Made by a program: the position numbers and the translations under genes. A model generated the notes under the pieces. That model made no database searches and was not told where the DNA came from. It saw only the letters and a program-made list of their open reading frames with translations. Shown piece by piece: positions 252 to 59,792 of a stretch of DNA of 64,000 bases; position 1 is the stretch's first letter, and each line of letters opens with the position of its first letter. This stretch comes from Marinobacter halotolerans (GTDB lineage: Bacteria > Pseudomonadota > Gammaproteobacteria > Pseudomonadales > Oleiphilaceae): NCBI RefSeq assembly GCF_008795985.1, contig NZ_VMHP01000001.1:372001-436000 (forward strand). The letters are read 5' to 3'.

Positions 252-359
252 AGTTGAGGTGGAATGGCTTTCAGGAAAACGCTACAAGCCCATCCATGGG
301 CGCTTGGGCTCCGCCATCCATGGCTCCGCACATTTCCTGAAAGCCATTCCACCTCAACT
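252..359 (+). repeat. Hairpin element A: conserved 54-nt core inside locus-specific inverted repeat
   Basis: A perfect 27-bp inverted repeat (252-278 and 333-359) encloses a 54-nt core (279-332). The arms are not shared with the other copies. The core is: it matches the reverse complement of element C at all but two positions and shares its second half with element D. It carries two 12-nt mini-palindromes around CCATCCATGG, at 289-300 and 313-324. The element begins 14 bp behind the hydratase stop codon. A poly-U run after the distal arm, expected for an ordinary intrinsic terminator, is absent; instead the inner ends of the arms are A-rich (left) and T-rich (right). Not recognised as a named family. 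Confidence 0.85.
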
Positions 360-416
360 CGCCAGACTTCAACATAGCCGCGACCGTTTTGCAGGCAAAC
401 TCAAAGAAATGCGGGA

Positions 417-611
417 GCGCTTTCGGCGGGGGCTGTCTCCAGAAAATTTCGTAGGCCATGGATGGCCGGAGATAAGCGCACACGGGTTCGGCCGAGCGCT
501 TATAAAGCAAAGCTTCATGCGACAGCCGAACGACAGCAATCTGTGATTGCTGGCTGGACCCCGAAGGGGTGCTTGTAGCGGTTTTCTGGAGACAGCCCCC
601 GCCGAAAGCGC
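417..611 (-). repeat. Hairpin element B: long-loop variant with 30-bp perfect arms
   Basis: A perfect 30-bp inverted repeat (417-446 and 582-611) encloses a 135-nt loop. The loop starts with a core-like segment (GCCATGGATGGC at 455-466, then AAGCGC) and ends with GCTTGTAGCG (571-580), the same two ends as the core of element C in the same orientation. Between them is about 95 nt that the other copies lack, with internal stems: 486-492 with 525-531, 534-541 with 545-552 (8 bp, 3-nt loop), and 558-562 with 566-570 (5 bp, GAA loop). This looks like a multi-branched folded RNA or single-stranded DNA. The right arm ends 29 bp before the carboxylase start codon, so it lies in that gene's 5' leader. 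Confidence 0.8.
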
Positions 612-640
612 GGACAGGCACAAAACAAGAGATCAGAACA

Positions 641-2608
641 ATGCTAAAAAAACTGCTCATAGCCAACCGCGGTGAGATCGCTGTCCGTATCATCCGCACG
701 GCCAAATCACTGGGATACCGAACGGTCGCGGTTTTCTCGGAAGCCGACGCCCGCGCCCTGCATGTGGAACTGGCCGATGAAGCCGTTTGCATCGGCCCGG
801 CGCAGGTCAGTGCTTCCTATCTGAATGCCGAAGCCATACTCGAAGCCGCGAAAAAAACCGGCGCCGACTGCGTTCACCCCGGCTACGGCTTCCTGTCCGA
901 GAACTCCGGCTTCGCCCGCGCCTGCAAAGACGCCGGGCTTGTATTTGTCGGCCCGCCGGAAGCGGCCATCGAACTCATGGGCAGCAAACGCCGCTCCAAA
1001 ATTGCCATGCAGGAAGCCGGCGTTCCCGTGGTGCCCGGTTTTGAAGGGGACAACGCCCGCGACGACGAACTGATCGAAGCCGCCAAAACCATCGGCTACC
1101 CCCTGATGATCAAGGCCTCCGCCGGTGGTGGCGGCCGCGGCATGCGCCTGGTAGAGGCCGAGGCTGACCTGGCAGACAACCTGAAACGCGCCCGCTCCGA
1201 GTCCAAACAGGCCTTCGGCGACGACGAGCTGATACTGGAAAAGGCCGTCATCGAGCCACGCCATATCGAAATCCAGGTGTTCGCCGACCGCCACGGCAAC
1301 GCCGTCTACCTGGGTGAACGGGACTGTTCCATTCAGCGCCGCCACCAGAAAGTGGTGGAAGAAGCCCCCTCACCTTTCATGACACCCGAATTGCGCAAAG
1401 CCATGGGCGAAGCCGCCGTCAAGGCCGCCCTGGCCTGCCAGTACGAAGGCGCGGGCACGGTGGAATTTCTGGTGGACAAAGATCGGAACTTCTATTTCCT
1501 GGAAATGAACACCCGACTGCAAGTGGAACACCCGGTCACCGAAATGATCACTGGGCAGGACCTTGTGGCCTGGCAGTTGGCCGTCGCCGAGGGTGAGACC
1601 CTGCCCCTGAGCCAGGAAGAGGTTGTTCTCAATGGTCACGCCATCGAAGTCCGGCTCTACGCGGAAGACCCGGCGCGAAACTTTACCCCCCAAACCGGCA
1701 CCCTGCACCGGTTCAATCCGGCCGAAGGCGAAGGCATCCGGTTTGACAGTGGTGTGCGCGCGGGCGATGACATCACACCCCACTACGACCCCATGCTGGC
1801 CAAAGTCATCGCCTGGGGCAAGAACCGGAACGAAGCCCGCCGCCGGCTGATCAAAGCGCTGGAGGATACCGTCGTATTCGGCACCAACACCAATCAGCGC
1901 TTCCTTGCCCGCATCATTGCCGATGACGCCTTTGGCAGGGGCGAGGCGACCACCGCGTTTCTGCAATCAGAGTTCAACAATGACCCCTCCATGGCGCCTG
2001 CGGATATTGGCATCCGTGAACTGGCACTGGCCGCCAGCCTGTTCAGCCAGGGCATGGATCAGCAGCACGCCTGGAGCAACGCGCCGGCGACCGTCACACC
2101 CATGACACTGGCCACCGGCGAGCAGACCCTCAGTGTGCTGGTGCGCACCCGGGGCCACGAAATTACCGTGACCGCCGGCGAAGACCAGTACGAGCTCACG
2201 CTTGTGTCGGCCGCAAACGGGCGGGCATGCATCATCGACAGGGGCGCGCGTCAGGTTTGCCAATATCACCGTCAGGGGGATCATCTATATTTGCAGGCGT
2301 TCGGCCAGACCCTGGCGCTGCAGGACCTGACCCATCAGCCTGCCAACGCCAACGCCGCAGGCGGCACCGGCCAGATAAAAGCCACCATGGACGGCGCACT
2401 GATTGATGTGCTGGTGAAGCAGGGACAGACCGTAAAACAGGGTGATACGCTGGTGATTCTGGAGGCCATGAAAATGGAACACCCGGTCAAGGCTGACCGC
2501 GACGGTACTCTGGCCAGCCTGCCGGCTGTCAAAGGCGACCAGGTGAAACGCAACCAGTTACTGGCGGAAATTACCGCCGACGACACTGCGGAGGACACCG
2601 AACAATGA
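641..2608 (+). CDS. Biotin-containing acyl-CoA carboxylase alpha subunit (AtuF/LiuD-like)
   Basis: A 655-residue biotin carboxylase fused to a biotin carrier domain. It would carboxylate biotin with bicarbonate and ATP and hand the carboxyl group to a separate beta subunit acting on an acyl-CoA. Visible: N-terminal 'LLIANRGEIAVRI', the ATP-grasp glycine loop 'GGGGRGMR' (about 165-172), 'SIQRRHQKVVEEAPSP', 'EMNTRLQVEHPVTE', and the biotinyl motif 'EAMKME' with Lys about 611. The start at 641 was chosen because the protein there aligns with the normal N terminus; the longer frame upstream runs through hairpin element B. The stop overlaps the next start (ATGA). Context (hydratase before; SDR and acyl-CoA synthetase after) favours the geranyl-CoA carboxylase alpha subunit AtuF; methylcrotonyl-CoA carboxylase alpha (LiuD) is the main alternative. 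No beta subunit lies in the window. Confidence 0.9.
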   Translation: MLKKLLIANRGEIAVRIIRTAKSLGYRTVAVFSEADARALHVELADEAVCIGPAQVSASYLNAEAILEAAKKTGADCVHPGYGFLSENSGFARACKDAGLVFVGPPEAAIELMGSKRRSKIAMQEAGVPVVPGFEGDNARDDELIEAAKTIGYPLMIKASAGGGGRGMRLVEAEADLADNLKRARSESKQAFGDDELILEKAVIEPRHIEIQVFADRHGNAVYLGERDCSIQRRHQKVVEEAPSPFMTPELRKAMGEAAVKAALACQYEGAGTVEFLVDKDRNFYFLEMNTRLQVEHPVTEMITGQDLVAWQLAVAEGETLPLSQEEVVLNGHAIEVRLYAEDPARNFTPQTGTLHRFNPAEGEGIRFDSGVRAGDDITPHYDPMLAKVIAWGKNRNEARRRLIKALEDTVVFGTNTNQRFLARIIADDAFGRGEATTAFLQSEFNNDPSMAPADIGIRELALAASLFSQGMDQQHAWSNAPATVTPMTLATGEQTLSVLVRTRGHEITVTAGEDQYELTLVSAANGRACIIDRGARQVCQYHRQGDHLYLQAFGQTLALQDLTHQPANANAAGGTGQIKATMDGALIDVLVKQGQTVKQGDTLVILEAMKMEHPVKADRDGTLASLPAVKGDQVKRNQLLAEITADDTAEDTEQ

Positions 2609-3432
2609 GCGACCTGACCAATCGAACCGTGTTTATAACAGGCGGCAGCCGCGGCATTGGCCGCGCCATTGCCCTTGCATGCGCCCGCCAAGGCGCCAAT
2701 GTGGTGATTGCGGCCAAATCCGACAAGCCCCATCCCAAGCTGCCCGGGACCATCCACAGCGTCGCCGATGAAATTCGCGAAGCCGGCGGGCAGGCCCTGC
2801 CACTAGTGCTGGATGTGCGCGACGAAGACCGGGTAAAAGCCTGCGTCGACGAGGCCGGCGAACATTTCGGGGGAATTGATGCCCTGATCAACAATGCCGG
2901 TGCCATTCGCCTGTCCGGCGTGGAAGGCCTGAAACCAAGCCGTTATGACCTAATGCACCAGGTCAACGCCCGGGCGGTATTCGTCTGCAGCCAGGCCGTT
3001 CTGCCCTGGCTGAAGGAATCAGACCATGCCCACATACTGAGCCTGGCGCCGCCCCTGAACCTGAACACCAAATGGTTCGCCCAGTACGGCCCCTACACCA
3101 CCACAAAATACGGCATGACCATGCTCAGCCTGGGCATGGCAGAGGAATTCAGCCGCTACGGCATTGCCGTGAATACCCTGTGGCCGAAGACCCTGATTGC
3201 CACTGCCGCCATCGAATTTGAAGTAGGCGGCCCGAAAATGATGGCCCAGGGCCGCAATCCGGACATCATGGCGGATGCGACGGTCAGCATTCTTGGCCGC
3301 AACGCGGAGCAGATGACCGGCCAAACACTGATTGATGAAGACCTGCTGAGAGCCGATGGCGTGACCGATTTCGAAGGCTACCGCTATCAGCCCGGCGACA
3401 AACCGCTGATGCCAGACCTGTTTCTGGATTAG
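2605..3432 (+). CDS. Short-chain dehydrogenase/reductase (HSDL2/AtuG-like)
   Basis: A 275-residue classical-type SDR. The NAD(P)-binding motif TGGSRGIG is at residues 12-19, NNAG near 96-99 and the catalytic Tyr-x-x-x-Lys ('PYTTTK') at Tyr164/Lys168. The segment 'SLAPPLNL' and the conserved tail 'YRYQPGDKPLMPDLFLD' are typical of the hydroxysteroid dehydrogenase-like 2 group. The start codon overlaps the carboxylase stop by four bases and the acyl-CoA synthetase follows 18 bp later, so the three are probably one transcript. In the atu cluster an SDR of this kind (AtuG) sits in the same position; its precise substrate is not settled, so only oxidoreductase activity on a terpenoid or acyl-CoA intermediate is suggested. 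Confidence 0.88.
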   Translation: MSDLTNRTVFITGGSRGIGRAIALACARQGANVVIAAKSDKPHPKLPGTIHSVADEIREAGGQALPLVLDVRDEDRVKACVDEAGEHFGGIDALINNAGAIRLSGVEGLKPSRYDLMHQVNARAVFVCSQAVLPWLKESDHAHILSLAPPLNLNTKWFAQYGPYTTTKYGMTMLSLGMAEEFSRYGIAVNTLWPKTLIATAAIEFEVGGPKMMAQGRNPDIMADATVSILGRNAEQMTGQTLIDEDLLRADGVTDFEGYRYQPGDKPLMPDLFLD

Positions 3433-3450
3433 CCAAAAAGGGATGACCAG

Positions 3451-5280
3451 ATGACCCAGGATACCGTCACGGCCCGCGACCTTGTTCGAAGTTTGCCCGG
3501 CATTGCCCGACGCTTTCCCAGCATTGCCAAGGGCCTCTATTATTACGCCGCCAAGGCTCCCCATAAGCCGCTGACCCTGGGCACTCTGATCGAACGCAAT
3601 GCACGGGCCTTCGGCCATCGCCCGGCCATTCTGTACGAAGATCGCAGCCTGACCTGGCGCGAGTTCGATGGCTGGGCCAATCAGTTCGCCCGTTACCTGA
3701 CGGCCGAAGGCCTGAAAAAAGGCGACGCCATTGCAGTGTTCCTGGAGAACCGCCCGGAACTGCTGGCAGTGGTTGCCGGCGCTGCGAAAATCGGCGTGGC
3801 CTGCGCCATGCTGAATACCTCCCAGAAAGGCAAGGTACTGACCCACAGCATTAATCTGATCCAGCCAAAGCTGGTTGTGGTCGGTGAAGAACTGGCCGGT
3901 ACATTTGATGAGGTTCGCGGTGCCATCGACACCGACCACCCACGCCCTTTTCAGTTCCTGGCGGACGCGAACACCCTGAACGAATTCGGCGATGCGCCGG
4001 ATGGTTACACCAATATGGCCGCGGGCGTCAGCGCTCATCGCAGTGACGCCCCCGCTGTCAGCAACCCGCCTACCATGGGCGACACCGCCGTCTACCTGTT
4101 CACCTCGGGCACGACCGGCCTGCCCAAAGCCGCGCCCGGGTCCCATCGCAAGTTCGTTAAGGCGTATGGTGGCTTCGGGCTGATGTCCCTGGCCATGGAA
4201 CCGGAGGATGTTCTTTACTGCACGCTGCCCCTCTACCACGGCACCGCCCTGCTGGTGTGTTGGGGATCGGTGCTGGCCGGCGGCTCGTCGATCGCGCTGC
4301 GACGGAAGTTCTCGGCCAGCGAGTTCTGGAAAGACGTTCGCTATTACCGCGCCACCACCTTCGGCTATGTGGGCGAGCTCTGCCGCTATTTGCTGAACCA
4401 GCCCCGGTCGGAAAAAGACCGGCATCACACTCTTACCAAAATGATCGGCAACGGCCTGCGTCCGTCCATCTGGCACGAGTTCAAATCCCGCTTCGGAATC
4501 GACACGGTGGCGGAACTGTATGCTTCCAGCGAGGGCAACATCGGGTTCAGCAATTTTTTCAACATGAACAACACCGTCGGTTTCTCCACCGCCCCCTACA
4601 AACTGGTGGAATTCCACGACGGCACCCGTGATCCGGTGCGGGACGAGAAAGGCTTCATGAAGGAAGTGCCAAAAGGCCGACCGGGTCTGCTGATCGGAGA
4701 GATCACCAAGGTCTGGTCATTTGAGGGCTACACCCAGAAAGAGGCCACGGAAAAGTCCATCCTCCGGGATGCTTTCAAGAAAGGCGATGAGTGGTTCAAC
4801 ACCGGCGACGTGCTGAAAAACATAGGCTGCGGCCACCTGCAGTTCGTCGACCGCATGGGTGATACCTTCCGCTGGAAAGGCGAAAACGTATCCACCAACG
4901 AAGTGGAAAACATCATCGACGGCTCGGGCCTGGCGGAAGAAGCCATCGTCTACGGCGTGGAAATCCCCGGCACGAACGGCAAAGCCGGCATGGTGACCCT
5001 GGTGCCGCAAGCTGATATCAATGAATTCGATCCGGACAGGTTGCTGAGCTACCTGCAGGAGAACCTGCCGCCTTACGCCATTCCGGTGTTCGTCCGCGTG
5101 ACCGATGCCATCGAGAAAACCGGCACGTTCAAGTATCGCAAGGTCGATATTCAGAAGCTTGGGTATTCCATCGAAAAGCCCGGTGACCAGGTTTATGCCC
5201 ACTTGCCGGGTTGTGAGGGGTATATTCAGCTGACCGAGAAGCTTCTGGGGCAGATCGATGCTGGGGAGATTGGGCTTTAA
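3451..5280 (+). CDS. Long-chain/very-long-chain acyl-CoA synthetase (AtuH-like)
   Basis: A 609-residue ATP-dependent acyl-CoA synthetase of the FATP/VLACS branch. The AMP-binding P-loop 'FTSGTTGLPKA' is near residue 217, followed by 'YCTLPLYHGTA', 'YASSEGNIGF', and the C-terminal 'TGDVL...FVDRMGDTFRWKGENVST' region that closes over the active site. The enzyme would activate a fatty or terpenoid acid to its CoA thioester. It is 18 bp behind the SDR with an AGGGATGACC ribosome-binding region. The order hydratase, carboxylase alpha, SDR, synthetase matches atuEFGH. Hairpin element C lies about 100 bp downstream, between this gene and the convergent oxidoreductase. Confidence 0.9.
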   Translation: MTQDTVTARDLVRSLPGIARRFPSIAKGLYYYAAKAPHKPLTLGTLIERNARAFGHRPAILYEDRSLTWREFDGWANQFARYLTAEGLKKGDAIAVFLENRPELLAVVAGAAKIGVACAMLNTSQKGKVLTHSINLIQPKLVVVGEELAGTFDEVRGAIDTDHPRPFQFLADANTLNEFGDAPDGYTNMAAGVSAHRSDAPAVSNPPTMGDTAVYLFTSGTTGLPKAAPGSHRKFVKAYGGFGLMSLAMEPEDVLYCTLPLYHGTALLVCWGSVLAGGSSIALRRKFSASEFWKDVRYYRATTFGYVGELCRYLLNQPRSEKDRHHTLTKMIGNGLRPSIWHEFKSRFGIDTVAELYASSEGNIGFSNFFNMNNTVGFSTAPYKLVEFHDGTRDPVRDEKGFMKEVPKGRPGLLIGEITKVWSFEGYTQKEATEKSILRDAFKKGDEWFNTGDVLKNIGCGHLQFVDRMGDTFRWKGENVSTNEVENIIDGSGLAEEAIVYGVEIPGTNGKAGMVTLVPQADINEFDPDRLLSYLQENLPPYAIPVFVRVTDAIEKTGTFKYRKVDIQKLGYSIEKPGDQVYAHLPGCEGYIQLTEKLLGQIDAGEIGL

Positions 5281-5380
5281 CCTCATTTCCCAGCCTGAAT
5301 TTTTTGGTGTTAACGCCAAGTCGGGCAGGCCTGGCTCGCCAGCAGTTCAGTAATCGCAAGCGATATCCCGTTAGTGAGTT

Positions 5381-5490
5381 AGCGCCGGTGGGAACCCTCG
5401 ACCAAAAATGTGCGGAGCCATGGATGGCGGAGCCCAAGCGCTCATGGATGAGCTTGTAGCGTTTTTTGGGCGAGGGTTCCCATCGGTGCT
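5381..5490 (-). repeat. Hairpin element C: conserved 54-nt core inside locus-specific inverted repeat
   Basis: Arms at 5381-5408 and 5463-5490 (28 bp, three mismatches) enclose a 54-nt core (5409-5462) that is the reverse complement of the element A core with two differences. Those two differences fall opposite each other in the first mini-hairpin, so pairing is preserved. Two of the three arm mismatches are G-T on the plus strand and would be G-U wobble pairs in a plus-strand RNA. The element lies between two convergent genes (acyl-CoA synthetase stop 5280; oxidoreductase stop 5537). Arm sequence is unrelated to that of the other copies. Confidence 0.85.
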
Positions 5491-5536
5491 CTGCACCAAA
5501 CTAACCAGGCTACGATCCCAGGCAAAAGGACAAACT

Positions 5537-6517
5537 TCAGCCGCCAACCTTCAGCACAATCTTGCCAGTAGCCGTACGACCAGTAAGCGCCCCAAGAGCC
5601 TTCTCGTATTCCTCAAACTCGAACACCTGGCTGATTTTCGGATCGATTTTGCCCTCGGCAAACATCTGTAGCAGCTCCATCATGTTTTTGGCGCTGTTTT
5701 CCGGCTCTCGCTGGGTGAAGCTGCCCCAGAATACGCCAACCACGGAACAGCCCTTCAGAAGGGTCAGGTTAGCCGGGATCTGAGGGATGTCGCCGGCGGC
5801 AAAACCGATGATCAGGTGGCGGCCGTTCCAGGCCATCGCCCGCAACGCCTGCTCGGTAAATTCACCGCCGACCGGGTCGTAAATGACATCGACACCCTTG
5901 CTGTTGGTCAGCTTCTTCACCGCTTCTTTCAACGGCTCTTCCGAGTAGTTGATCAGTTCGTCCGCGCCAGCTTCTTTTGCCACGGCCAGTTTTTCCGCCG
6001 TGCTGGCTGCGGCAATTACCTTGGCACCCATGGCCTTGCCCAGCTCAATGGTAGCCAAGCCAACGCCGCCGCTGGCGCCCAGCACAAGAAGGGTTTCACC
6101 GGGTTGAATGTTGGCGCGTTGCTTCAGAGCGTAATAGGAGGTGCCGTAAACCATGGAAAACGCAGCGGCTTTCTCGTCGGACATGGCGTCCGGAATCGGC
6201 AGGATATTCTGCTCCGGAACGATCACCTCTTCGGCAAAGGCACCGTAACCGGTCAGGCCCGCCACACGGTCACCCGGCTTGAAGCGGGTAACTTTCTCCC
6301 CAACCTCAATGACTTCCCCGGACATTTCCCCGCCCGGGGAAAACGGCATAGTAGGTTTGAGCTGATACTTGCCTTCGATGATCAGGGTATCGGGAAAGTT
6401 CAGGCCGGCAGCCTTCACTTTCACCTTCACGCCCCGCCCTTTCACTTCAGGGCTGGGAATATCCTCGATCACCAGTTTACCGGCAGGGCCATATTCCTTG
6501 CAGAGAATCGCTCTCAT
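5537..6517 (-). CDS. NADPH:quinone oxidoreductase family protein (zinc-independent MDR)
   Basis: A 326-residue medium-chain dehydrogenase/reductase. The N-terminal GroES-like domain contains 'GLNFPDTLIIEGKYQ', typical of the quinone oxidoreductase branch; the catalytic zinc cysteine and histidine of alcohol dehydrogenases are not seen. The Rossmann motif GASGGVG is at residues 147-153 and 'DPVGGE' near 210. The C-terminal 'TGRTATGKIVLKV' is also typical. It is monocistronic, with a gap of about 150 bp before the BLUF gene upstream. Members reduce quinones or act on enoyl-CoA/enone substrates; the real substrate cannot be read here. Confidence 0.88.
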   Translation of the reverse strand: MRAILCKEYGPAGKLVIEDIPSPEVKGRGVKVKVKAAGLNFPDTLIIEGKYQLKPTMPFSPGGEMSGEVIEVGEKVTRFKPGDRVAGLTGYGAFAEEVIVPEQNILPIPDAMSDEKAAAFSMVYGTSYYALKQRANIQPGETLLVLGASGGVGLATIELGKAMGAKVIAAASTAEKLAVAKEAGADELINYSEEPLKEAVKKLTNSKGVDVIYDPVGGEFTEQALRAMAWNGRHLIIGFAAGDIPQIPANLTLLKGCSVVGVFWGSFTQREPENSAKNMMELLQMFAEGKIDPKISQVFEFEEYEKALGALTGRTATGKIVLKVGG

Positions 6518-6666
6518 GGTGTGCTCCGTTTATCAGCATTTGGTTAGCAGAAGAAGATAAGGATAGTTGCTAATCACGCTGAAGCTAAACAGTGTCACGC
6601 CATGAATCAAATGAACAAATCTTATCTCGAAACATTAGTCGCTTTTATTGACGGTGCTGACCTTCT

Positions 6667-7233
6667 TCAGAACGTCGTACTCGCATAAACCAGGGCACCG
6701 ACGATGGCCAGAGCCGCTACGACCAGCCCGATTCCAACACCACTGACACCTGAAGAAGCCCTTGAACGTGAGGATGCCAGATCCTGGTGGTTTATCACTC
6801 GACCCTGCTCGCTGGAATCGCGTATCAGCTGAATCATGTCCTCACACAAAGGGCGGGTGAAGCTCAGGGGCTGGAAAGACTTCATTCCGTTCCGGTCCAG
6901 AAACTTCTGAACGTCTGAGGAAAGCGGTACGTATTTCATCGACCAATTGGTAAAGGTCCGGGCAGAAAGCGGCTCTTCCACCAGAGTCGTCACGTTGCGG
7001 TGGCGTTCGTCATTGGCTATACGATCGTACAGCTCGCGAACCGCGTCTTCTTCACCCTCCAGGTACTGGAAAAAACAACCGTCTCCGTAGTAAAGCCCCC
7101 CCACTATGTGGGTTTTCGCATTATTCTTGCGGGACGTCATCAATATACGAGCAACGTTGGGCTCGACGCCCTGTTCGGCCGGCTTCTCATTGAACGTGGC
7201 TTCACTGGCATAAGCCAGGCGGATTAAAGACAT
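6667..7233 (-). CDS. BLUF-domain blue-light sensor with C-terminal membrane anchor
   Basis: A 188-residue protein. The first 110 residues form a BLUF domain: Tyr8 in 'IRLAYAS', the Asn pair 37/38 in 'SRKNNAK', Gln56 in 'FFQYLEG', and Trp97/Met99 in 'NWSMK' correspond to the flavin-contact residues of the family. BLUF proteins bind FAD non-covalently and respond to blue light. The linker (about 110-160) has no recognisable output domain; residues about 163-184 are a hydrophobic segment, so the sensor may be tail-anchored. Start 7233 is preferred because AGGAG lies 8 bp before it and the BLUF fold begins there; the frame extends 12 codons further upstream without a ribosome-binding site. Confidence 0.85.
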   Translation of the reverse strand: MSLIRLAYASEATFNEKPAEQGVEPNVARILMTSRKNNAKTHIVGGLYYGDGCFFQYLEGEEDAVRELYDRIANDERHRNVTTLVEEPLSARTFTNWSMKYVPLSSDVQKFLDRNGMKSFQPLSFTRPLCEDMIQLIRDSSEQGRVINHQDLASSRSRASSGVSGVGIGLVVAALAIVGALVYASTTF

Positions 7234-7375
7234 GGAACATGCTCCTAAGGTCAGCAAATTCGCCAACACAACTGTGTTACGGGATTTTCACAAAGAGATT
7301 AAGATACGGCCGAAATAGCTCGAACGGATCACAGTAGGATGTCGGGTAAGGTCTTAGGAGGCCAGCGAGAAAGGC

Positions 7376-7413
7376 ATAAAAAACGGGCCACCGAAAGACT
7401 CGGGGCCCGTTTC
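7376..7413 (-). terminator. Intrinsic terminator of the PEP-CTERM gene
   Basis: On the minus strand a stem of 9 bp (GGCCCGTTT region, 7404-7412 with 7381-7389), extended inside by CCGA/TCGG, closes a short loop and is followed by a run of six T residues. It starts 23 bp after the stop of the minus-strand gene ending at 7436. Confidence 0.8.
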
Positions 7414-7435
7414 TCTCAACTACAGATGTTCCAGA

Positions 7436-8191
7436 TCAGCTCACGCGCTTGCGACGTGAGAGACCAAGGCCAGCAAGACCCAGGCCCAACAGAGCAAGTG
7501 TGCCCGGCTCTGGTACGGGGTTTGGAACGACAACCTGCTCCCGCTTGCCAATCGTGAAGTTGTCAAAAGCGAACACATCCGAGCTTCCGGTGGTCAGGAA
7601 GTCAACGCTGGTGAACTCCTCAGCGGCGTTCTCGGCGATCAGACCAAAGAAAAGCACCGATCCTCCGGTGGAGCCACCAGAGCCCTGACTGTTATTGACC
7701 GTAAGCTCGTCTCCATTTGACAGTCCGAGCTTTAGCTGGCCACCGAAATCACCGATGTCGACACCATAGAACCCGAAGGCAGCAATGGAATCCGTGAAGT
7801 TAACGGCGAAATTGCCGGACCCGCCTGCGCGAACTTCCCAGAACTTGGAAGAGCCTGCAGACGGCACACTATAACGGCCTGCTGTGGCGTCACCGGGAGT
7901 CACTGATTCAATCTCACCATTGCCGCCACTCAGGGTTGCAGTTCCGGCGCCCGGGAACGTGAGATTCAAAGGCTCACCTGCTCCCGCAGGGTAGCTTTCG
8001 AAATCTTCCGTACCCGTCCCTGACAAGTTAGCCAGGAAATTCGATTCAGCGCCAGATGAGTTCGGCACTGAAGCAAGCGGGGTGGATTCTGAGTTGTTTA
8101 CATCCTCTCCGAAGAACAGGATATAGGCGTTTGCCTGAGATGCGGACAGGACAAGCCCGGCTGCCACTGCCAAAGAAGTGAGTTTTTTCAT
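7436..8191 (-). CDS. PEP-CTERM sorting-domain exported protein
   Basis: A 251-residue secreted protein. Residues 1-24 are a signal peptide ending 'ASQANA'. The extreme C terminus reads 'VPEPGTLALLGLGLAGLGL' followed by 'SRRKR': a PEP motif, a transmembrane segment and a basic tail, the signal recognised by exosortase. The middle is a low-cysteine, Gly/Ser-rich, probably beta-rich domain with 'FAFDNFTIG' near the end, as in many PEP-CTERM proteins of unknown role. Such proteins are usually linked to exopolysaccharide or biofilm, so an exosortase gene should exist elsewhere in the genome. Start 8191 was chosen for the signal peptide and a GGAG 9 bp upstream; a longer frame exists but would bury the signal peptide. 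Confidence 0.88.
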   Translation of the reverse strand: MKKLTSLAVAAGLVLSASQANAYILFFGEDVNNSESTPLASVPNSSGAESNFLANLSGTGTEDFESYPAGAGEPLNLTFPGAGTATLSGGNGEIESVTPGDATAGRYSVPSAGSSKFWEVRAGGSGNFAVNFTDSIAAFGFYGVDIGDFGGQLKLGLSNGDELTVNNSQGSGGSTGGSVLFFGLIAENAAEEFTSVDFLTTGSSDVFAFDNFTIGKREQVVVPNPVPEPGTLALLGLGLAGLGLSRRKRVS

Positions 8192-51325: not shown

Positions 51326-51328
51326 GAA

Positions 51329-52488: not shown

Positions 52489-52505
52489 CAGGTTTTCCCA
52501 TGTTT

Positions 52506-53843
52506 TCAGGCGTCGCGGCTGAACACCGGCAGGCTCAGGCGCACTACCAGCCCGCCCGCGTCCGAATTAAACGCTTTGATATCGCCATCATGAAGGCCAA
52601 GAATGTCGCGGGCAATAGCCAGACCTAACCCCCAGCCTTGGCCCCCGCGGGATTTGTCGGCCCGAAAGAAAGGTTCGAAAAGCTGGTCCAGGGTATTTTC
52701 GGGAACCCCCGGCCCCTCATCTGTGATGTCCACGAGAAACCGCTGGCCTGCCGTCTTGAGGCTGATGGTAACGGGGTGCCCGGGCGGCGTATGGTCCAGC
52801 GCGTTCTGCAACACGTTATCCAGCGCCCGCTGCAACAGATTGGCGTCACCCAATACCAACGCATGCTCCGAGTCAGGGGACACGGTCAGGCGGCAATCCA
52901 CCCCCTGGTGCTCGGCATAATCCGCGGCATCTGCCAGCACGCTGTTCAATACATGGAGCAACTGAAACGGCTCCCGCTGGATGTCGTCACCCTGATCAGA
53001 CACGCTATAGAGCGTCAGGATCTGCGCCGTCATGGCCTCCAGGCGTTCGTTCTGACGGAGAATGGACGCCAGCAGATCTTCATCGACACTGCCGTCATCG
53101 GCAAGCTCAATGGCAATACGCTGGCGGGTCAGCGGCGTCCTGAGGTCGTGGGAGATATCCCGCATCAGGTGTTTCTGCCGTTCGAGCAGATAGCACAGCC
53201 GCTCGGTCATACCGTTAAATGCGGTGGCCAGGGCACCGATTTCGTCACGCCTTGAAGCAATCCGACGGCTGACCCGAAGGTCGATATGGCCGCCGGCAAT
53301 ATCACGGGCAGTAGACTCCATATGCCTGAGTGGCCGGGACACCAGCCTGGCCACCCACCAGCAGGCCAGCGTGATAATCACAAATGCCAGCAGCAGTTCG
53401 AACCAGCGATACAGCCGGGCATCCACCCAGCCTTCCGCGCCTTTACGGGGCCAGGCAACCAGTTGGTAATCATCGGCCACCGGAATAACCGCCGGTTTCA
53501 GGTGGTACCAGCCACTGGATTCAAGCCGCTCGCGGATTACCTGGGGCAGCTCGTCGTCATTGCGGTCTACCTCAATCAGGCGCAGGTGCAGGTCCAGTCG
53601 CTGCCCTTCGGACTTGAGGTAGCGCCACAGACTGCCGCCATCGCCGTCACGTCGGAAAGCCAACGCCTGCATGGCAACTTCCCGAAGGCCGGCCTGGCGC
53701 TCGATCGCTGCCCGCTCACGATCCTGCAGTGTATGGGTGACCATATTGCCGACCACCACGGCCAGGGCCATGGCAACCCAGATTGAAATGAACACCCGCC
53801 AGAACAGCGTAACCCGCAGCCCGCGCCGCATCAGACCGGTCAT
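52506..53843 (-). CDS. Two-component sensor histidine kinase (CpxA/RstB-like)
   Basis: A 445-residue kinase with two transmembrane helices (about 12-30 and 168-188) bounding a periplasmic sensor of about 130 residues, then HAMP ('VSRPLRHMESTARDIAGGH', near 190), dimerisation domain with phospho-acceptor His in 'RDISHDLRTPLTRQ' (near 240), and the ATPase domain with 'NVLQNALDHTP' (N box), 'DEGPGVPENTLDQLFEPFFR' (G1), and 'GWGLGLAIARDI' (G2). Overlaps the response regulator stop by four bases (regulator first). Sensed signal unknown. Confidence 0.93.
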   Translation of the reverse strand: MTGLMRRGLRVTLFWRVFISIWVAMALAVVVGNMVTHTLQDRERAAIERQAGLREVAMQALAFRRDGDGGSLWRYLKSEGQRLDLHLRLIEVDRNDDELPQVIRERLESSGWYHLKPAVIPVADDYQLVAWPRKGAEGWVDARLYRWFELLLAFVIITLACWWVARLVSRPLRHMESTARDIAGGHIDLRVSRRIASRRDEIGALATAFNGMTERLCYLLERQKHLMRDISHDLRTPLTRQRIAIELADDGSVDEDLLASILRQNERLEAMTAQILTLYSVSDQGDDIQREPFQLLHVLNSVLADAADYAEHQGVDCRLTVSPDSEHALVLGDANLLQRALDNVLQNALDHTPPGHPVTISLKTAGQRFLVDITDEGPGVPENTLDQLFEPFFRADKSRGGQGWGLGLAIARDILGLHDGDIKAFNSDAGGLVVRLSLPVFSRDA

Positions 53844-54526
53844 ACCGGGACCCGGTAGCTGTAGCCCAGTCCCCTGACCGTCTCAATCCGCGGCGGATCG
53901 TCACCGCCAAGCTTCTTTCTCAGATTACTGATATGCATGTCCAGGGTCCGGTCATAGGCTTCCAGCCGTCTGCCCAGCGCCCACTGCATCAGGTCAGTCT
54001 TGCGCACGACGCTGCCCGCATGGGCCAGCAGAACCTGCAGGACTTCGTATTCGGTGGCAGTCAGGTCCAGCACCTGGTCGTTCTGGTAGATGCGACGCTG
54101 AACGGGCTCGACCCGCAGATCCCCATAGAGCCTGCTTTCGTCCACGTCCACTTCGCTGTCCCAGGCTATACGCCTGAGCAGAGCCTGCATCCGGGCGATG
54201 AGCTCTCGCGGGTTACAGGGTTTGGGAATGTAATCGTCCGCACCCACTTCGAACCCGACGATGCGATCCGTCTCGTCGCCCCGGGCGGTCAGAAGCACCA
54301 CCGGCAGGTGAGTTTTTGCCCGCAACTGCCGAAGCACATCCAGGCCGCTGATATCCGGTAACATCACATCCAGCACCACAATATCGCAATCCTGGCCCAT
54401 GGCCAGCGACAGACCATCGTTGCCGTTAGCCGCCTCGCGCACGGTGAAGCCCTGATTGGTGAGATAGCGTGACAAAAGCGAACGAAGTTCATCATCATCT
54501 TCAACCAGCAAGACCCGGTTTTGCAT
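53840..54526 (-). CDS. OmpR/PhoB-family response regulator (CpxR-like)
   Basis: A 228-residue regulator. Receiver domain residues: acidic 'EDDDE' at 9-13, phospho-acceptor Asp in 'VVLDVMLPD' (about 52), conserved Thr in 'LLTARGDE' and Lys in 'YIPKPCNPREL' (about 103). The C-terminal winged helix ends 'RTLDMHISNLRKKLGGDD', typical of OmpR-class proteins. Start 54526 has AGGAGG upstream. A 148-bp gap separates it from the divergent acyltransferase gene and would contain the operon promoter. Confidence 0.95.
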   Translation of the reverse strand: MQNRVLLVEDDDELRSLLSRYLTNQGFTVREAANGNDGLSLAMGQDCDIVVLDVMLPDISGLDVLRQLRAKTHLPVVLLTARGDETDRIVGFEVGADDYIPKPCNPRELIARMQALLRRIAWDSEVDVDESRLYGDLRVEPVQRRIYQNDQVLDLTATEYEVLQVLLAHAGSVVRKTDLMQWALGRRLEAYDRTLDMHISNLRKKLGGDDPPRIETVRGLGYSYRVPV

Positions 54527-54674
54527 AAAACTCCTCCTGAAACCTTCCGAAAGTCTACCACGCCCTGAAACCGGGCCGCTGCGGCCAGAGGGTTTTTGCA
54601 AAACCTTTACACCATGGTCTCCAGGACAGATTCTGGCGTATGGTATCGGGAAACCCACAGGAGCTCGCCCCGAC

Positions 54675-55844
54675 ATGCCCGACCCGACTCTTCCCGAACT
54701 CACCATCACCACCTGCGAGTCCATCGAAGAGATTGGCCGGCAACAGTGGCAGGCGCTTGCCGGCACTGGCAATCCGTTCCTGAGGTATGAATTCTTCGTG
54801 GCGCTTGAGCAGTCCGGCTGCACCCGGGCAGAAACCGGCTGGCAGCCCCAGCACCTGGTTATCCGCGCAGGCGACGAGATTATGGGCGTGGCCCCTGCCT
54901 ATCTGAAAACTCACTCCATGGGCGAATACGTCTTTGATTTTGCCTGGGCCGAGGCTTATCAGCGCCACGGTCTGCCCTATTATCCGAAGTTGCTGGTCGC
55001 CATCCCCTTCACTCCCTCCCGCGGGCCCAGACTTTTAATTGATCCCGCCGTGCGAACGCGCCTCAGACCCGGTGACGTTCCCGCCTTGCTGGATTCGGTG
55101 ATTGCCGACCTGGGCGTTCACTCGTGGCACCTGTTATTCCCGGACGTCGCTGACCAGTCACTGCTTCATCAGGAAGGCGAACTGCACAGACTGGGCTGCC
55201 AGTTCCACTGGCATAACCACAATTACAGCAACTTCGATGATTTTCTGGCAGCGCTCACCTCCCGCAAGCGCAAGGCGATTCGCAAAGAGCGCCGGCAGGT
55301 GGCCGAACAGGGCATCACCTTCAAACGCTACCATGGCCGGGATATCTCTGATCATGTGCTGTCAGCGTTCTATGTGTTCTATCAGGCCACCTACCTCAAA
55401 CGTGGCCAGCGGCCCTATCTTAACGAATCCTTCTTCCAGCAGATCCGGGAACGCCTGCCGGAGCACCTGACGCTGATCATGGCTGCCCAGGACGGCCGAA
55501 TGATCGCTGGTGCCCTATTCATGAGCGGCCAGGACACGCTCTACGGTCGCTACTGGGGCTGCCTGGACGAATACAACTTTCTGCACTTCGAAACCTGTTA
55601 CTATCAGGGCATCGAATTGGCCATTGAACGGGGCCTGGCACGCTTCGATGCGGGGGCTCAAGGCGAGCACAAACTGATCCGTGGGTTTGAGCCGGTTCTG
55701 ACGCATTCCTGGCACGGCATAGCGCACCCTGATTTCCGGGAGGCCATTGCCAGGTTTACCGAGGAAGAGGCGATCCACGTCAGGGCCTATACTGATGAAG
55801 CATCAGACGCACTGCCTTTCCGTCAGCCCGGAACAAGTCAGTAG
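54675..55844 (+). CDS. GNAT-fold acyltransferase (FemAB/'peptidogalycan biosynthesis', DUF482)
   Basis: A 389-residue protein. 'FLRYEFFVALEQSGC' near 36, 'AWAEAYQRHGLPYYPKLLVAIPFTP' (in part) near 100, 'SRKRKAIRKERRQV' near 202 and 'YWGCLDEYNFLHFETCYYQGIE' (in part) near 295 and 'RFDAGAQGEHKL' are highly characteristic of the DUF482 family, which has a tandem GNAT fold and no assigned substrate. AGGAG lies about 10 bp before ATG. Divergent from the two-component system. Confidence 0.9.
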   Translation: MPDPTLPELTITTCESIEEIGRQQWQALAGTGNPFLRYEFFVALEQSGCTRAETGWQPQHLVIRAGDEIMGVAPAYLKTHSMGEYVFDFAWAEAYQRHGLPYYPKLLVAIPFTPSRGPRLLIDPAVRTRLRPGDVPALLDSVIADLGVHSWHLLFPDVADQSLLHQEGELHRLGCQFHWHNHNYSNFDDFLAALTSRKRKAIRKERRQVAEQGITFKRYHGRDISDHVLSAFYVFYQATYLKRGQRPYLNESFFQQIRERLPEHLTLIMAAQDGRMIAGALFMSGQDTLYGRYWGCLDEYNFLHFETCYYQGIELAIERGLARFDAGAQGEHKLIRGFEPVLTHSWHGIAHPDFREAIARFTEEEAIHVRAYTDEASDALPFRQPGTSQ

Positions 55845-55885
55845 CAGCCCCCTTTGCTCACCGACATGTTACAGAGGTGGTATCC

Positions 55886-56536
55886 ATGGAAACGGACTAT
55901 CTTTTCAATCTTTTAACCACCAACCACATCATTCTGCTGATCGCTGTCACGTCACTGATTGTGGCGGCCTTTGCCATTATTTCCGGTAGCTTGGCCCGAC
56001 GAAAAATGACCGAGCAGAACCATCTGGTGAAATACCGGGTGGACACTCTCTGGAAAGATATCAATGCATGGCAGGCATCGCAGTTCAACAGCCCTGGCAC
56101 CCCTGCCCAGCAGGATGTGAACGCCGGCGAACACTACGCCACGGAGAAAGCGGCTTACGAGGCTATCTGGCCTCTGGTGTGGTCGCTTCACGACAGGTTG
56201 GGCATGTTTCTACGGGCCGTAGAAGCGGATGATAATGCAGGCGAACTGCGGCTTGAGGCGCGCAATGCAGCGCTGGAGGCACGCAAAGTCCTCAACCGCG
56301 TGCGCCCCTTTTGCCAGAGCGACATTGATGAGCTGATCACGCAACTGATCGACAACCACATCAAGGCGCACCTGGCGGCCTGTCATCTGATGGATCTGCG
56401 CAAGGACGGCCTTGCCTCAAGCTCTAACCACGAAATGGCCGTCCAGAAAGAGAAGTTCCACATGCTCTACGACAACCAGGCCAAAGAAATGCTGAACCAG
56501 CTGGTCACCCTGATCAGGCGCCGGATGCTTCGTTAA
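55886..56536 (+). CDS. Hypothetical single-pass membrane protein
   Basis: A 216-residue protein with one hydrophobic segment near the N terminus (about 15-36) and a long helical cytoplasmic portion with many charged residues ('LEARNAALEARKVLNRVRPF', 'DELITQLIDNHIKAHLAAC'). Three upstream codons beginning GTG are in frame, but ATG at 55886 with AGAGGTGG 9 bp before is the better start. No family recognised. It is convergent with pncB and their stop codons overlap by four bases. Confidence 0.7.
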   Translation: METDYLFNLLTTNHIILLIAVTSLIVAAFAIISGSLARRKMTEQNHLVKYRVDTLWKDINAWQASQFNSPGTPAQQDVNAGEHYATEKAAYEAIWPLVWSLHDRLGMFLRAVEADDNAGELRLEARNAALEARKVLNRVRPFCQSDIDELITQLIDNHIKAHLAACHLMDLRKDGLASSSNHEMAVQKEKFHMLYDNQAKEMLNQLVTLIRRRMLR

Positions 56537-57903
56537 ACGCGATCACCCGTTGCTGTGACTTTGGTCAGGGTGTCCCGTTGCAGCGCCCGAAGGAAATCAC
56601 TGATCACCACCGGGTTTTCTTTCACCGGCTCCAGAGAACGGAATTGCGCCGGTAACGCATGAATCCGCTGCTTTGCCACTGCCACCTGATCATCCAGGGA
56701 CGGTATCGCGCCTTCGATGATCCGGCCATTCTTCATCACCGGCTTCAGCAATGGTTCCCCATCGAATACTTCTTCCCGGCCCGCAAGAATATCCCGAGTG
56801 ATAAAGCCGTCTGTTCCGAGCTGGCGGTAAACCTGCTTACGGCCAGGGAATGACTGCTTGCCAGGCGAGTTTTTCATGCGCGGAAGGCTGGCATACTCCG
56901 TCAGCTTGAAGGCCAGCTCCAGCGCAGCCCCATCCTTGGACGAGGCGATAGCCGTACCCACCCCGAAGCCGTCAATCGGCACATCCGTGGACACAATCTC
57001 CTCGATCTCGTATTCATCAAGCCCACCGCTGGCCATGATTTTCACGTCGGTAAAGCCCGCGTCATCCAGCAGGCGCCTGCACTGCACGGCCTCGCCCGCC
57101 AGGTCGCCGGAGTCCAGGCGAATGCCACCAATGCTGGCGTCCGTGTCGGCTTTCAGCCACTGGATGATATCTCTCACCGCATTTACCGTGTCGTAGGTGT
57201 CTACCAATAGAGTGGTTCCCGGGTACAGCCGGGCGTAGGTCCTGAAGGCGTCCATCTCACTGTCGCAGGACTGGACAAAACTGTGAGCCATGGTGCCCTT
57301 GACCGGCATATTGAAATCCAGGCCCGCCAGCACATTGCTGGTTCCGGCCAGTCCTGCCAGGCGATAGGCCCTTACACCCCGGTGGGCGGCATCCACGCCA
57401 TGGGTTCTGCGCATGCCGAAATCGACAACGGGCTTGTCTCCCGCTGCAAACCGGACACGGACAGCTTTCGAGGCCAGAACAGATTCCAGGTGTACGTAGT
57501 TCATTACCAGGCTTTCCAGCAACTGCACCTCCGCAATCGGGCCTTCAACCTCAAGCAACGGCTCTTGAGGAAACAGCGGGGTACCCTCGGCAACGGCGTG
57601 TATAGAGCCACTGAAGCGAAAGTTGCGTAGCCACTCCAGAAAGTCAGGCTGGAAGCGGTCCAGCGAATCCAGCTGCTCAATGTGCTCGTCGGTAAACCTG
57701 AGCCCTTCGACTACCTGCGCCACGTTCTGCTGGCCGCAGGCCAGAACAAAGTTCCGATGGACGGGAAGTTCGCGGAAAAACAGACTGAATACCGCAGTCT
57801 GGCCCATGCCTTCGGACCAGTAGGCCTGGGCCATGGCCAACTCATAAAGATCGACCAGCAGAGACAGGTCATTCTCTTTGACAACCGGTGGTTGCTTCAG
57901 CAC
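56533..57903 (-). CDS. pncB: Nicotinate phosphoribosyltransferase
   Basis: A 456-residue enzyme converting nicotinate plus PRPP (ATP-coupled) to nicotinate mononucleotide in NAD salvage. 'LLVDLYELAMAQAYW' at the N terminus, 'FGMRRTHGVDAAHRG' near 156, 'GTMAHSFVQSCDSEMDAFRTYARLYPGTTLLVDTYD' (in part) near 210 and 'GGIRLDSGDLAGEAVQCRRLLDDAG' (in part) are typical of the second (NAPRT) type. Start is GTG at 57903, overlapping the stop of pncA by seven bases; the two act in successive steps, nicotinamide to nicotinate to NaMN. Confidence 0.93.
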   Translation of the reverse strand: MLKQPPVVKENDLSLLVDLYELAMAQAYWSEGMGQTAVFSLFFRELPVHRNFVLACGQQNVAQVVEGLRFTDEHIEQLDSLDRFQPDFLEWLRNFRFSGSIHAVAEGTPLFPQEPLLEVEGPIAEVQLLESLVMNYVHLESVLASKAVRVRFAAGDKPVVDFGMRRTHGVDAAHRGVRAYRLAGLAGTSNVLAGLDFNMPVKGTMAHSFVQSCDSEMDAFRTYARLYPGTTLLVDTYDTVNAVRDIIQWLKADTDASIGGIRLDSGDLAGEAVQCRRLLDDAGFTDVKIMASGGLDEYEIEEIVSTDVPIDGFGVGTAIASSKDGAALELAFKLTEYASLPRMKNSPGKQSFPGRKQVYRQLGTDGFITRDILAGREEVFDGEPLLKPVMKNGRIIEGAIPSLDDQVAVAKQRIHALPAQFRSLEPVKENPVVISDFLRALQRDTLTKVTATGDRV

Positions 57904-58445
57904 AGGTCGGCGCCCTCCTGCTTCAGCTGCTCAAACACCGCTGGCGCTTCGTCTGCCCTGACGGCGCGAGTCCCGTCAGTGATCAACTCGACGGCAAAAC
58001 CATGCTTCAGGGCATCCCGCACCGTCGCCTGGACACAGACATCCAGGGCCAGACCGGCCACAAACAGCCGGTGAATGCCATGACGGCGCAGATAGCTGTC
58101 CAGCTGGGTGCCGTCGAACGCGGAATAGGCATCGGTATCAAAGGCGGTGCCCTTACTCACCCGGATCGCGGAATCCGGCAGTTCCATTTTCGGGTGAAAC
58201 TCGGCACCCGGCGTGTCCTGAACACAGTGAACCGGCCAGGGGCCACCGCGCTCCTCAAAGCTGATGTGATCCACCGTATGCCAATCACGGCTGGCCAGAA
58301 TCGGCCAGCCGGCTTCCTCCGCCTTACGGATCCACTGATTGATCACCGGGAAAATCGCGTTGCTATCGGGTACGGCCAGGCTACCGCCTTCACAGAAATC
58401 ATTCTGGACATCGACTAGCAGCAAGGCATGTTGTTCAGTACTCAT
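57897..58445 (-). CDS. pncA: Nicotinamidase (isochorismatase-like hydrolase)
   Basis: A 182-residue hydrolase deaminating nicotinamide to nicotinate. The catalytic triad is visible as Asp ('LLVDVQNDFCEGG', Asp about 11), Lys in 'RVSKGTAFD' and Cys in 'LALDVCVQATVRDAL'; 'SRDWHTVDHISF' holds metal-binding residues. Start at 58445 with AGGAGG 8 bp upstream. It is immediately upstream of pncB with overlapping ends, making a compact NAD salvage operon. Confidence 0.94.
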   Translation of the reverse strand: MSTEQHALLLVDVQNDFCEGGSLAVPDSNAIFPVINQWIRKAEEAGWPILASRDWHTVDHISFEERGGPWPVHCVQDTPGAEFHPKMELPDSAIRVSKGTAFDTDAYSAFDGTQLDSYLRRHGIHRLFVAGLALDVCVQATVRDALKHGFAVELITDGTRAVRADEAPAVFEQLKQEGADLC

Positions 58446-58498
58446 AAACGTGCCTCCTGTCTTCTCGGTAACTCCTTCAAGCCATCGGGACCAGAGGG

Positions 58499-58714
58499 TT
58501 AGCTGCCTTCAATCCTGAAGCCAATTTTCAGCACAACCTGATAGTGTCCGACTTTGCCATCCACCACGTGGCCACGGGTCTCCTGAACCTCAAACCACTC
58601 AATGTTGCGCAGATTCTTATGGCATTCGGCGATCGCATTTTCAATGGCGTCCTCGATGCTGTTCTTTGAGGACCCGACAACTTCAACCTTTTTGTAAACA
58701 TGATGATCAGACAT
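58499..58714 (-). CDS. Dodecin
   Basis: A 71-residue protein typical of dodecin, a small flavin-storage protein forming dodecamers. 'MSDHHVYKKVEVVGSS' and 'SIEDAIENAIA', 'RNIEWFEVQETRGHVVDG' (Trp stacking the flavin) and 'HYQVVLKIGFRIE' are typical. Start 58714 has AGGAGG 6 bp upstream; a longer frame is not dodecin-like. Lies 54 bp behind pncA in the same direction. Confidence 0.94.
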   Translation of the reverse strand: MSDHHVYKKVEVVGSSKNSIEDAIENAIAECHKNLRNIEWFEVQETRGHVVDGKVGHYQVVLKIGFRIEGS

Positions 58715-58894
58715 AAGACCTCCTGCTTCTGAAGTTGTATTTGGACAGACAAGTTCTGTTTCTGCCTCTACTTTCACCCTATACCAGTAACCTGAGTCCA
58801 TCAAACCAGCGTGAACTTTAGCTGCGGGATGAACTCTCAGGTCCGCCTGCCGTATATTTGACGGTAGTTCCCGGACCCCCTATGACGGATTCAC

Positions 58895-59722
58895 ATGGCG
58901 AAAATAAAACGCTGTCTTCTCGGTTTTGTGCTGACGCTCGCTGTACTGCTGGCGGGGCCGGTTTTTCTGGCCGCCTGTGCCAGCTTCCAGGACAGCAACA
59001 GCTGGCGCACCGCGGACCGCTCCAGCGCCGCCATAGCGCCGTCGCCGGAGCAGGAAAAGTCCGCAGTGGTGCAGGTTTACGCGGCCCGAGCCTTTAACTG
59101 GCGGGGTTATTTTGCGGTCCATACCTGGATCAGCACCAAGGCCGCCGGCGCCGGCCAGTATTACGTTCATGATGTGACGGGATGGCGCTACTACTCAGTG
59201 CAATCGCGGCCAGGTGTGCCGGACCGCGCCTGGTTCGGGTCAGCCCCGGCTCTGATCGCGGATATCCGTGGTGAAAAGGCCACCAGGATCATCGAGCAGC
59301 TTGATGAAGTCATAGACCGCTACCCCTACCCGACCCAGTACAAAGCCTGGCCGGGACCCAACAGCAATACCTTTGTGGCCTGGGTTATTCGTGAAATCCC
59401 GGAGTTGGAGGTCGCCCTGCCCAGCCATGCCATCGGCAAGGATTATCTGGGAGAGGATCTTTTCGCCAGGGTTCCCGGAGGCACTGGTTATCAGCTTTCG
59501 CTCGGTGGATACTTCGGCATTCTTGCGGGAACCAGGGAGGGTTTTGAGTTAAACATTCTTGGTCTTTCTCTCGGTGTTAACCCTCTGGGATTGGGTATCA
59601 AACTTCCGGGGGTTGGCGACCTGGCACTACGCAACACTAACCCAATGCCAGACGTTACCTCGCCTGAGACGGGTGCTGCCAAGACGGTCGGTGCAGGGCA
59701 GTCCTCCCAAAAAACGCTGTGA
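58895..59722 (+). CDS. DUF3750 exported protein, 3' end formed by hairpin element D
   Basis: A 275-residue protein with a hydrophobic N-terminal segment (about 9-28, possibly with a lipobox-like 'LAAC') followed by the DUF3750 pattern: 'VQVYAARAFNWRGYFAVHTW', 'YYVHDVTGWRYYSVQSRPG' and 'YPTQYKAWPGPNSNTFVAWV'. Function unknown; periplasmic or outer-membrane location. The last codons and the TGA stop (59720-59722) fall inside hairpin element D: the left arm of the element codes residues 'VGAGQSSQK' and the core supplies the final codons and the stop. Confidence 0.85.
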   Translation: MAKIKRCLLGFVLTLAVLLAGPVFLAACASFQDSNSWRTADRSSAAIAPSPEQEKSAVVQVYAARAFNWRGYFAVHTWISTKAAGAGQYYVHDVTGWRYYSVQSRPGVPDRAWFGSAPALIADIRGEKATRIIEQLDEVIDRYPYPTQYKAWPGPNSNTFVAWVIREIPELEVALPSHAIGKDYLGEDLFARVPGGTGYQLSLGGYFGILAGTREGFELNILGLSLGVNPLGLGIKLPGVGDLALRNTNPMPDVTSPETGAAKTVGAGQSSQKTL

Positions 59723-59792
59723 ACACGTCCGTGTGCGCTTGGGCTCCGCCATCCATGGCTCCGCACCTTTTTGGGAGGACTGCCCTGCACCG
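59689..59792 (+). repeat. Hairpin element D: conserved core inside locus-specific inverted repeat
   Basis: A perfect 25-bp inverted repeat (59689-59713 and 59768-59792) encloses a core of exactly 54 nt (59714-59767). The second half of the core is identical to that of element A (GCGCTTGGGCTCCGCCATCC and the following ATGGCTCCGCAC). In the first half the mini-hairpin is changed to CACGTCCGTGTG, which still pairs. The left arm lies within the 3' end of the DUF3750 gene and the core contains its stop codon. The right arm ends 26 bp from the stop of azlD on the other strand. Confidence 0.85.

Follow-up and report, generated by a model that had tools for sequence, protein, structure and literature searches.

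Dispersed hairpin elements with two GGA loops and jointly changing arms in Marinobacter: probable relatives of the TwoAYGGAY RNA

Four hairpin elements and their neighbourhood

The window, a stretch of 64,000 nucleotides from Marinobacter halotolerans, holds four hairpin elements, each composed of two long inverted arms around a loop; the covariance model R1 described below returns four elements in it at E up to 1. Element 1 (249..362, RNA-sense strand minus, 122.1 bits with R1) has 30-bp arms (249–278 and 333–362, 29 pairs matched) that enclose a spacer of 54 nt (279–332) with ANGGAN loops at 316–321 and 292–297. It runs antisense to both of its neighbours, a reading frame ending at 238 and a gene at 641. 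The latter, of biotin-carboxylase type (641..2608, plus strand; like the other genes here named by eye from the sequence), is situated downstream of element 2 (417..611, plus strand, 64 bits), which ends 29 nt upstream of the ATG. The 30-bp arms of element 2 (417–446 and 582–611) are perfect, and the spacer (447–581) measures 135 nt. Loop 1 reads ATGGAT (458–463), and loop 2 is lost through an interruption of about 80 nt (about 486–567), as in 12 of the 278 elements collected for this study. Element 2 belongs to one family with the other window elements, of which it represents a long-loop form. The insert carries hairpins of its own and interrupts loop 2 at an identical position in all 12 carriers (window 486–567 and loci L100, L137, L144, L145, L146, L164, L175, L197, L205, L211 and L230), the arms and hairpin-2 types of which differ; it looks as if a second element targeted loop 2.

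Element 3 (5381..5490, plus strand, 115.2 bits) is placed between convergent genes. It is sense to an AMP-binding acyl-CoA-synthetase-type gene (3451..5280, plus strand), which stops 100 nt upstream of the element and converges with a quinone-oxidoreductase-type gene (5537..6517, minus strand). The 28-bp arms (5381–5408 and 5463–5490) contain three mismatches, and the 54-nt spacer (5409–5462) displays ATGGAT at 5420–5425 and again at 5444–5449. The element is followed by a conserved 3' outer motif of the GCACCAA ... CAGGC type (5493..5513, plus strand). A consensus scan revealed no sigma-70-like promoter in the vicinity of element 3, and a terminator scan detected no GC hairpin with a T run on the element itself. 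The sole terminator-like site nearby (5505–5521, minus strand) overlaps the 3' outer motif.

Element 4 (59686..59795, minus strand, 112.6 bits) consists of 28-bp arms (59686–59713 and 59768–59795, 27 pairs matched) and a 54-nt spacer (59714–59767) with the loops ATGGAT (59751–59756) and ACGGAC (59727–59732). A reading frame at 58895–59722 terminates within this element (59686–59722), so that its last residues are encoded by arm and loop.

Hairpins with inverted arms at these four sites and spacers of 54 nt in three of them had been described in a first-pass annotation, and both points are borne out. Of its arm counts, the pair with three mismatches (in 28) stood, and the three pairs called perfect have 29/30, 30/30 and 27/28 matches within the bounds given above.

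Copies in the genome and in related bacteria

The window contains three copies of a 26-nt core, and 100 shuffles contain none. When up to three mismatches are allowed, the 3.78-Mb genome has 32 such places and the reversed control yields none. Inverted arms of 17–32 aligned pairs accompany the core at all 32 places. No more than three mismatches are present in 29 of these; the other three are L011 and L022 (four mismatches each) and L030 (five), and L013 is eroded to 17 pairs. The arms differ between all 32 copies. The earlier description of a conserved loop with site-specific arms thus holds genome-wide, and the counter-case it had named, a core without arms, is never seen among the 32 core places. 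Alignment A1 and covariance model R1 were built from 30 copies, leaving out L013 and L030; the inner arm ends, A-rich on one side and T-rich on the other as noted before, recur in most of the 30 copies compared. With an E threshold of 0.001, R1 returns 42 matches across the whole genome, a total that includes the copies it was built from and counts one hairpin twice, once per strand.

When named genomes were scanned with the core, at least 119 stretches emerged, and all 80 records among the matches listed bear the name Marinobacter. In overlapping samples of increasing breadth, R1 (E up to 0.001) matches 60 of 61 genomes of the genus (3 to at least 63 matches each), 77 of 101 genomes and 9 of 16 genera of the family, 53 of 145 genomes and 38 of 91 genera of the order, and 34 of 185 genomes, representing 34 of 177 gammaproteobacterial genera, of the class. 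Sixteen distant genomes were checked by their best match, and in every case (16/16) the loop measures 52–54 nt and carries two ANGGAN motifs, both on a single strand, the opposite strand having none; this speaks against generic hairpins among these best matches. Two stretches of the genome G334 (L291 and L292) gave no element in the element extraction.

Ahead of the carboxylase gene, 27 of 29 loci, the best 29 of 119 relatives searched, carry an element that agrees with element 2 in position and orientation; two of the 27 gave partial matches (L075, located at a contig end, and L100, a long-loop form), and no element was found in L080 and L088. From locus to locus the arms at this site are still recognisably related, their differences being paired changes. 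Where element 3 lies, at least one match is present in 18 of 30 loci, the best of 41 genomes with our own included. L226, L233 and L237 resemble remnants that are truncated or lack the core, L239, L245 and L246 gave no match, and six loci in which the neighbouring gene was not found (L231, L236, L238, L247, L250 and L252) were left unjudged.

All 13 loci with two matches at the element 3 site display a minus-then-plus order, which also holds for the four pairs less than 500 bp apart in the genome of M. halotolerans (292687-/292971+, 369751-/370002+, 1428407-/1428616+ and window elements 1 and 2). Close pairs, both in this genome (C1) and in loci L224–L251, are arranged divergently at about 54–176 bp; divergent promoters in common would be one explanation. 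Another repeat, GTAGGTCGGATTAG..., lies in inverted pairs between the paired elements in the intergenic regions of L224, L225, L227 and L230.

The stem as the variable part of a larger unit

Although the arms differ between copies, they share a degenerate consensus, in which a G-rich outer half passes into a pyrimidine run and then into A's. Arm columns 1–21 contain 11.64 bits as against 3.25 in within-arm shuffles, and none of 2000 shuffles reaches the observed value. Moreover, conserved motifs are located outside the arms at a near-fixed distance; the upstream one resembles GAnGnTAACTCCnAAGTTnG and the downstream one TnCACCAAAnCnAGnAGGC. For the 278 elements, the motif likelihoods are 335 upstream (58–60 in two shuffles) and 471 downstream (44–59 in two shuffles). 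In the 31 copies of the M. halotolerans genome searched alone, L013 being left out, the downstream motif is distinct (78.8 versus 46–48 in shuffles) and the upstream motif is barely above shuffles (59.6 versus 43–56). Pairing between the two outer motifs was sought by eye and was not consistent. Since the arms are flanked by a conserved core on one side and conserved outer motifs on the other, the stem is the variable part within a unit that has a conserved centre and conserved outer ends.

A search of the genome with one arm at up to three mismatches gave no third copy. Four orthologous core-less loci of one site, the kind of locus that the first-pass annotation had named for deciding which arm is ancestral, share 8–9 nt with the one arm tested, which is the chance level (shuffle means 8.35–9.15). 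At this one site the arm was thus not found as pre-existing local sequence, and at another site the arms differ by paired changes.

Joint changes of the two arms

Arm changes were counted in 35 pairs of orthologues or copies that were confirmed by their flanks and restricted to near-identical loops, which keeps replacements of whole elements out of the set. Between the partners, 43 of 1885 loop positions differ, and the flanks diverge by 10.4% (550 transitions, 441 transversions). The arms display 83 two-sided Watson-Crick changes, 42 of transversion and 41 of transition type. Nine further changes are two-sided but of other types, and 35 affect one arm only (25 create or remove a G-U pair, one is A-C and nine are of other kinds). 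About four two-sided changes are expected in the 35 pairs under a purely neutral model of independent mutation; the pairs share history. Two-step compensation through G-U should favour transitions, and the balance of 42 to 41 hence suggests templated copying from arm to arm. Template switching between the arms, besides selection on the RNA, is plausible; the double changes could also stem from strong compensatory selection or from replacement of elements. Replacement of the whole element, including the loop, is observed at several sites. Template switching has been proposed to create and maintain RNA hairpins, and the creation of long stems by this route has been proposed as well (PMC8794818). 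With transversions as frequent as transitions, the family offers many cases in which two-step compensation can be weighed against one-step template switching.

Evidence for an RNA-level function

Within the arms, mismatches on the strand with the GGA loops are mostly G-U. In the 32 copies of M. halotolerans, 25 of 51 mismatches are G-U and four are A-C; in 7769 pairs of the 278 elements the corresponding numbers are 168 and 17 of 272, with P of about 2e-32, a value that ignores relatedness and overstates independence because orthologues are included. The excess in the single genome points in the same direction. Symmetry at the DNA level alone would lead to equal numbers of G-U and A-C on one strand. 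Covariation over A1 amounts to 0.767, in comparison with 0.202 in shuffled alignments (0 of 500 shuffles reach it) and at most 0.144 when the pairing is slid. Predicted folds of the GGA strand are more stable than those of its complement for element 1 (-72.7 versus -66.1 kcal/mol), element 3 (-65.3 versus -54.0) and element 4 (-70.7 versus -69.1); of these three, only element 4 contains both small hairpins in its minimum-energy fold. These data make it very likely that the elements are real and selected as RNA.

Among the 218 elements that were classified by orientation, 147 have the GGA strand in the sense of the upstream gene and 71 against it, counts that rest on crude ORF calls and on related, non-independent loci; 60 of the 278 elements were dropped (38 inside an ORF call, 16 at an edge and six far away). 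By the same crude calls, elements follow a stop codon on their own strand at a median of 55 nt (n = 147) and lie a median of 42 nt from a stop on the opposing strand (n = 120), in support of the earlier suggestion of a recurrent structure near gene ends. The flanks of 31 copies contain no T run after the stem of the kind that marks an intrinsic terminator.

Two ANGGAN loops and candidate binding by CsrA

On the RNA strand lie two small hairpins with ANGGAN loops, which are closed by C-G in 30/30 and 29/30 copies of A1, respectively. Loop 1 served for the detection of elements and loop 2 did not. For loop 2, the remainder of the spacer holds an ANGGAN in 243 of 246 elements of standard length, compared with 16% in shuffles (32 of the 278 were dropped for a non-standard loop length or because they were unparsed), and the base following the A varies (T 126, G 69, C 40, A 8). 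Within the stem of hairpin 1 there is a GGA/GGA internal loop; in two copies, pair 31-52 of this stem is C-G instead of G-C. An ANGGAX sequence set directly on a stem represents a high-affinity CsrA/RsmE site (PMC4005645). Sequence and alignment of the elements agree with this form, an ANGGAX hexaloop on a C-G-closed stem, and the minimum-energy folds do so in part. Judged from these sequence features, binding of a CsrA-type protein is likely. The M. halotolerans genome contains one csrA gene. Among the element-bearing genomes of the class sample, csrA is present in 31 of 34, the other three being 67–88% complete; as it occurs in 159 of all 185 genomes of that sample, its co-occurrence with the elements discriminates little.

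Shared arms and mobility in a distant genome

In the distant genome G366, 20 elements were read from 18 stretches picked for high or equal scores. Thirteen of them have identical 31-bp arms on both sides, six differ by one or two changes and one has other arms. Copies that share arm sequence were what the first-pass annotation had named as refuting its locus-specific arms, and as a general rule that idea thereby fails. The elements are embedded in a more extensive repeat, the outer parts of which show inverted symmetry; the Marinobacter outer motifs, inspected by eye, are not inverted repeats of each other. Both flanks were compared for 16 elements, and in three of them the loop is flipped relative to its flanks; judged by its flanks, a fourth element has a flipped loop as well. 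Two near-identical copies, L281 and L285, have one pair changed on both arms. Many copies of the G366 repeat (L273–L290) carry in addition, on the outer side, a short hairpin of the GGTGC-ATGGAT-GCACC type, which presents another GGA loop. One element searched against plasmid and phage records gave no match in either collection, and carriage by plasmids or phages was set aside.

Relation to Rfam families

The first-pass annotation could not match the elements to a named family; they resemble TwoAYGGAY (RF01731), in which two hairpins with AYGGAY loops sit on a long outer stem, and align over the whole of this model. In the M. halotolerans genome RF01731 gives two matches at E up to 0.001, the best with 38.3 bits below the gathering cut-off of 43, and run on the copies themselves it matches in full length with 31.6–34.8 bits in five of ten loci. 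In a set of 16 distant loci, L266, an element found by R1 in a distant gammaproteobacterium, passes the cut-off with 45.2 bits, and L262 reaches 36.8. The second base of loop 2 is often G or A instead of Y. Because the copies of M. halotolerans stay below the cut-off that a distant relative passes, they are on sequence grounds best termed TwoAYGGAY-related rather than members of the family. Other Rfam matches (miRNA families, Ysr224, sR19) lie below their cut-offs and were taken as generic long-hairpin matches. Near one copy, positions 954–1239 of L010 match RF02514 (5_ureB_sRNA) with 124 bits (cut-off 40).

Proposed role and alternative explanations

As a whole, the data are best explained, with moderate probability, by a dispersed structured-RNA element that is related to TwoAYGGAY and presents two CsrA-type loops. 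The strand with the GGA loops would be transcribed, often as part of a 3' or 5' UTR, and its stem of about 25–32 bp would form and display the two ANGGAN hairpins in the form bound by a CsrA/RsmA dimer. Core and loops would be maintained by selection on sequence and the stem for pairing only. The arms would change jointly, partly through selection on the RNA and probably partly through template switching from arm to arm during replication, and by changing together would come to look locus-specific. Copies may spread occasionally as a whole unit, many being kept vertically thereafter. Less in keeping with this explanation are the antisense position of element 1, the lost loop 2 of element 2, the scores below the RF01731 cut-off, the partial strand bias and the predicted folds, of which only that of element 4 contains both small hairpins.

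The proposal of the first-pass annotation, in which insertion of the core is accompanied by inverted duplication of the adjoining DNA, would account for arms that differ in all 32 copies, and it is compatible with the proposed creation of long stems by template switching (PMC8794818). It is rejected as highly improbable, since the arms follow a consensus that none of 2000 shuffles attains, conserved motifs lie beyond them, orthologous elements differ by paired arm changes, 13 copies in G366 have identical arms, and the tested arm leaves no trace above chance at the four core-less loci. Of the inverted copying it invoked, some probably takes place between the arms; copying of the flank is not supported. 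A MITE-like mobile hairpin devoid of a regulatory role, whose arms serve transposition or whose palindrome is kept symmetric by template switching or conversion, would fit the many copies per genome, the amplification in G366 within a larger repeat of inverted outer symmetry, the flipped loops and the replacement of whole elements at some sites. Such a strand-symmetric DNA process predicts equal numbers of G-U and A-C mismatches, yet 168 and 17 are observed; sites are moreover kept across Marinobacter, GGA is constant while the adjoining N varies, and the one element searched had no plasmid or phage match. We consider this explanation unlikely.

The position close to stop codons (medians of 55 and 42 nt) and the very stable stems would also suit a hairpin RNA at gene ends whose main task is to protect or terminate transcripts, like REP sequences or terminators, and whose GGA loops bind a partner other than CsrA or nothing. 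Neither the lack of a T run behind the stem in 31 copies nor the conservation of ANGGAN in both loops, which a mere barrier would not need, is in line with such a role, and we regard it as quite improbable. Returning to the TwoAYGGAY-related RNA element, a wider form of this reading is conceivable, if speculative: a distributed CsrA-binding network of gammaproteobacteria, in which tens of two-site hairpins in UTRs might buffer CsrA, the unit being quietly mobile and its stems rewritten by template switching, both arms per event, so as to leave a natural record of that mutation process. If CsrA were bound, a scattered set of decoys on mRNAs would form part of Csr regulation in numerous marine bacteria. 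In either form, a barely described Rfam motif would become a large and widespread family with a candidate protein partner.

Comparison with known systems

A dispersed Marinobacter family of this kind was not found described in the portions of the literature searched. The elements have in common with REP/BIME and MITE repeats, as these are generally understood, the many short palindromic copies in intergenic regions, and differ from them in that the loop is conserved and the stem merely pairs. TwoAYGGAY is listed in a table row as coming from human gut, gamma-Proteobacteria and Clostridiales (PMC2864571) and has been proposed to bind CsrA (PMC4333381). It shares with the elements described here a poorly conserved long outer stem and the two loop-bearing hairpins. 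These elements differ from it by tens of dispersed copies per genome, by ANGGAN in place of AYGGAY and by common outer motifs, features for which the available portions of PMC2864571 and PMC4333381 contain no mention, and their own RF01731 scores are 31–38 bits. The sRNAs of the CsrB/RsmZ type, which titrate CsrA, likewise present ANGGAX loops on C-G-closed stems (PMC4005645), but combine many sites in one sRNA, whereas the elements offer two sites per copy over many loci, with no consensus promoter near element 3 and no T run behind the stem in 31 copies. The template-switching model, finally, expects paired arm changes and inverted loops (PMC8794818), both of which are present here; as far as the available part of that report extends, it covers rRNA, microRNA and other Rfam RNAs, in contrast to the dispersed bacterial family with stems of about 25–32 bp described here.
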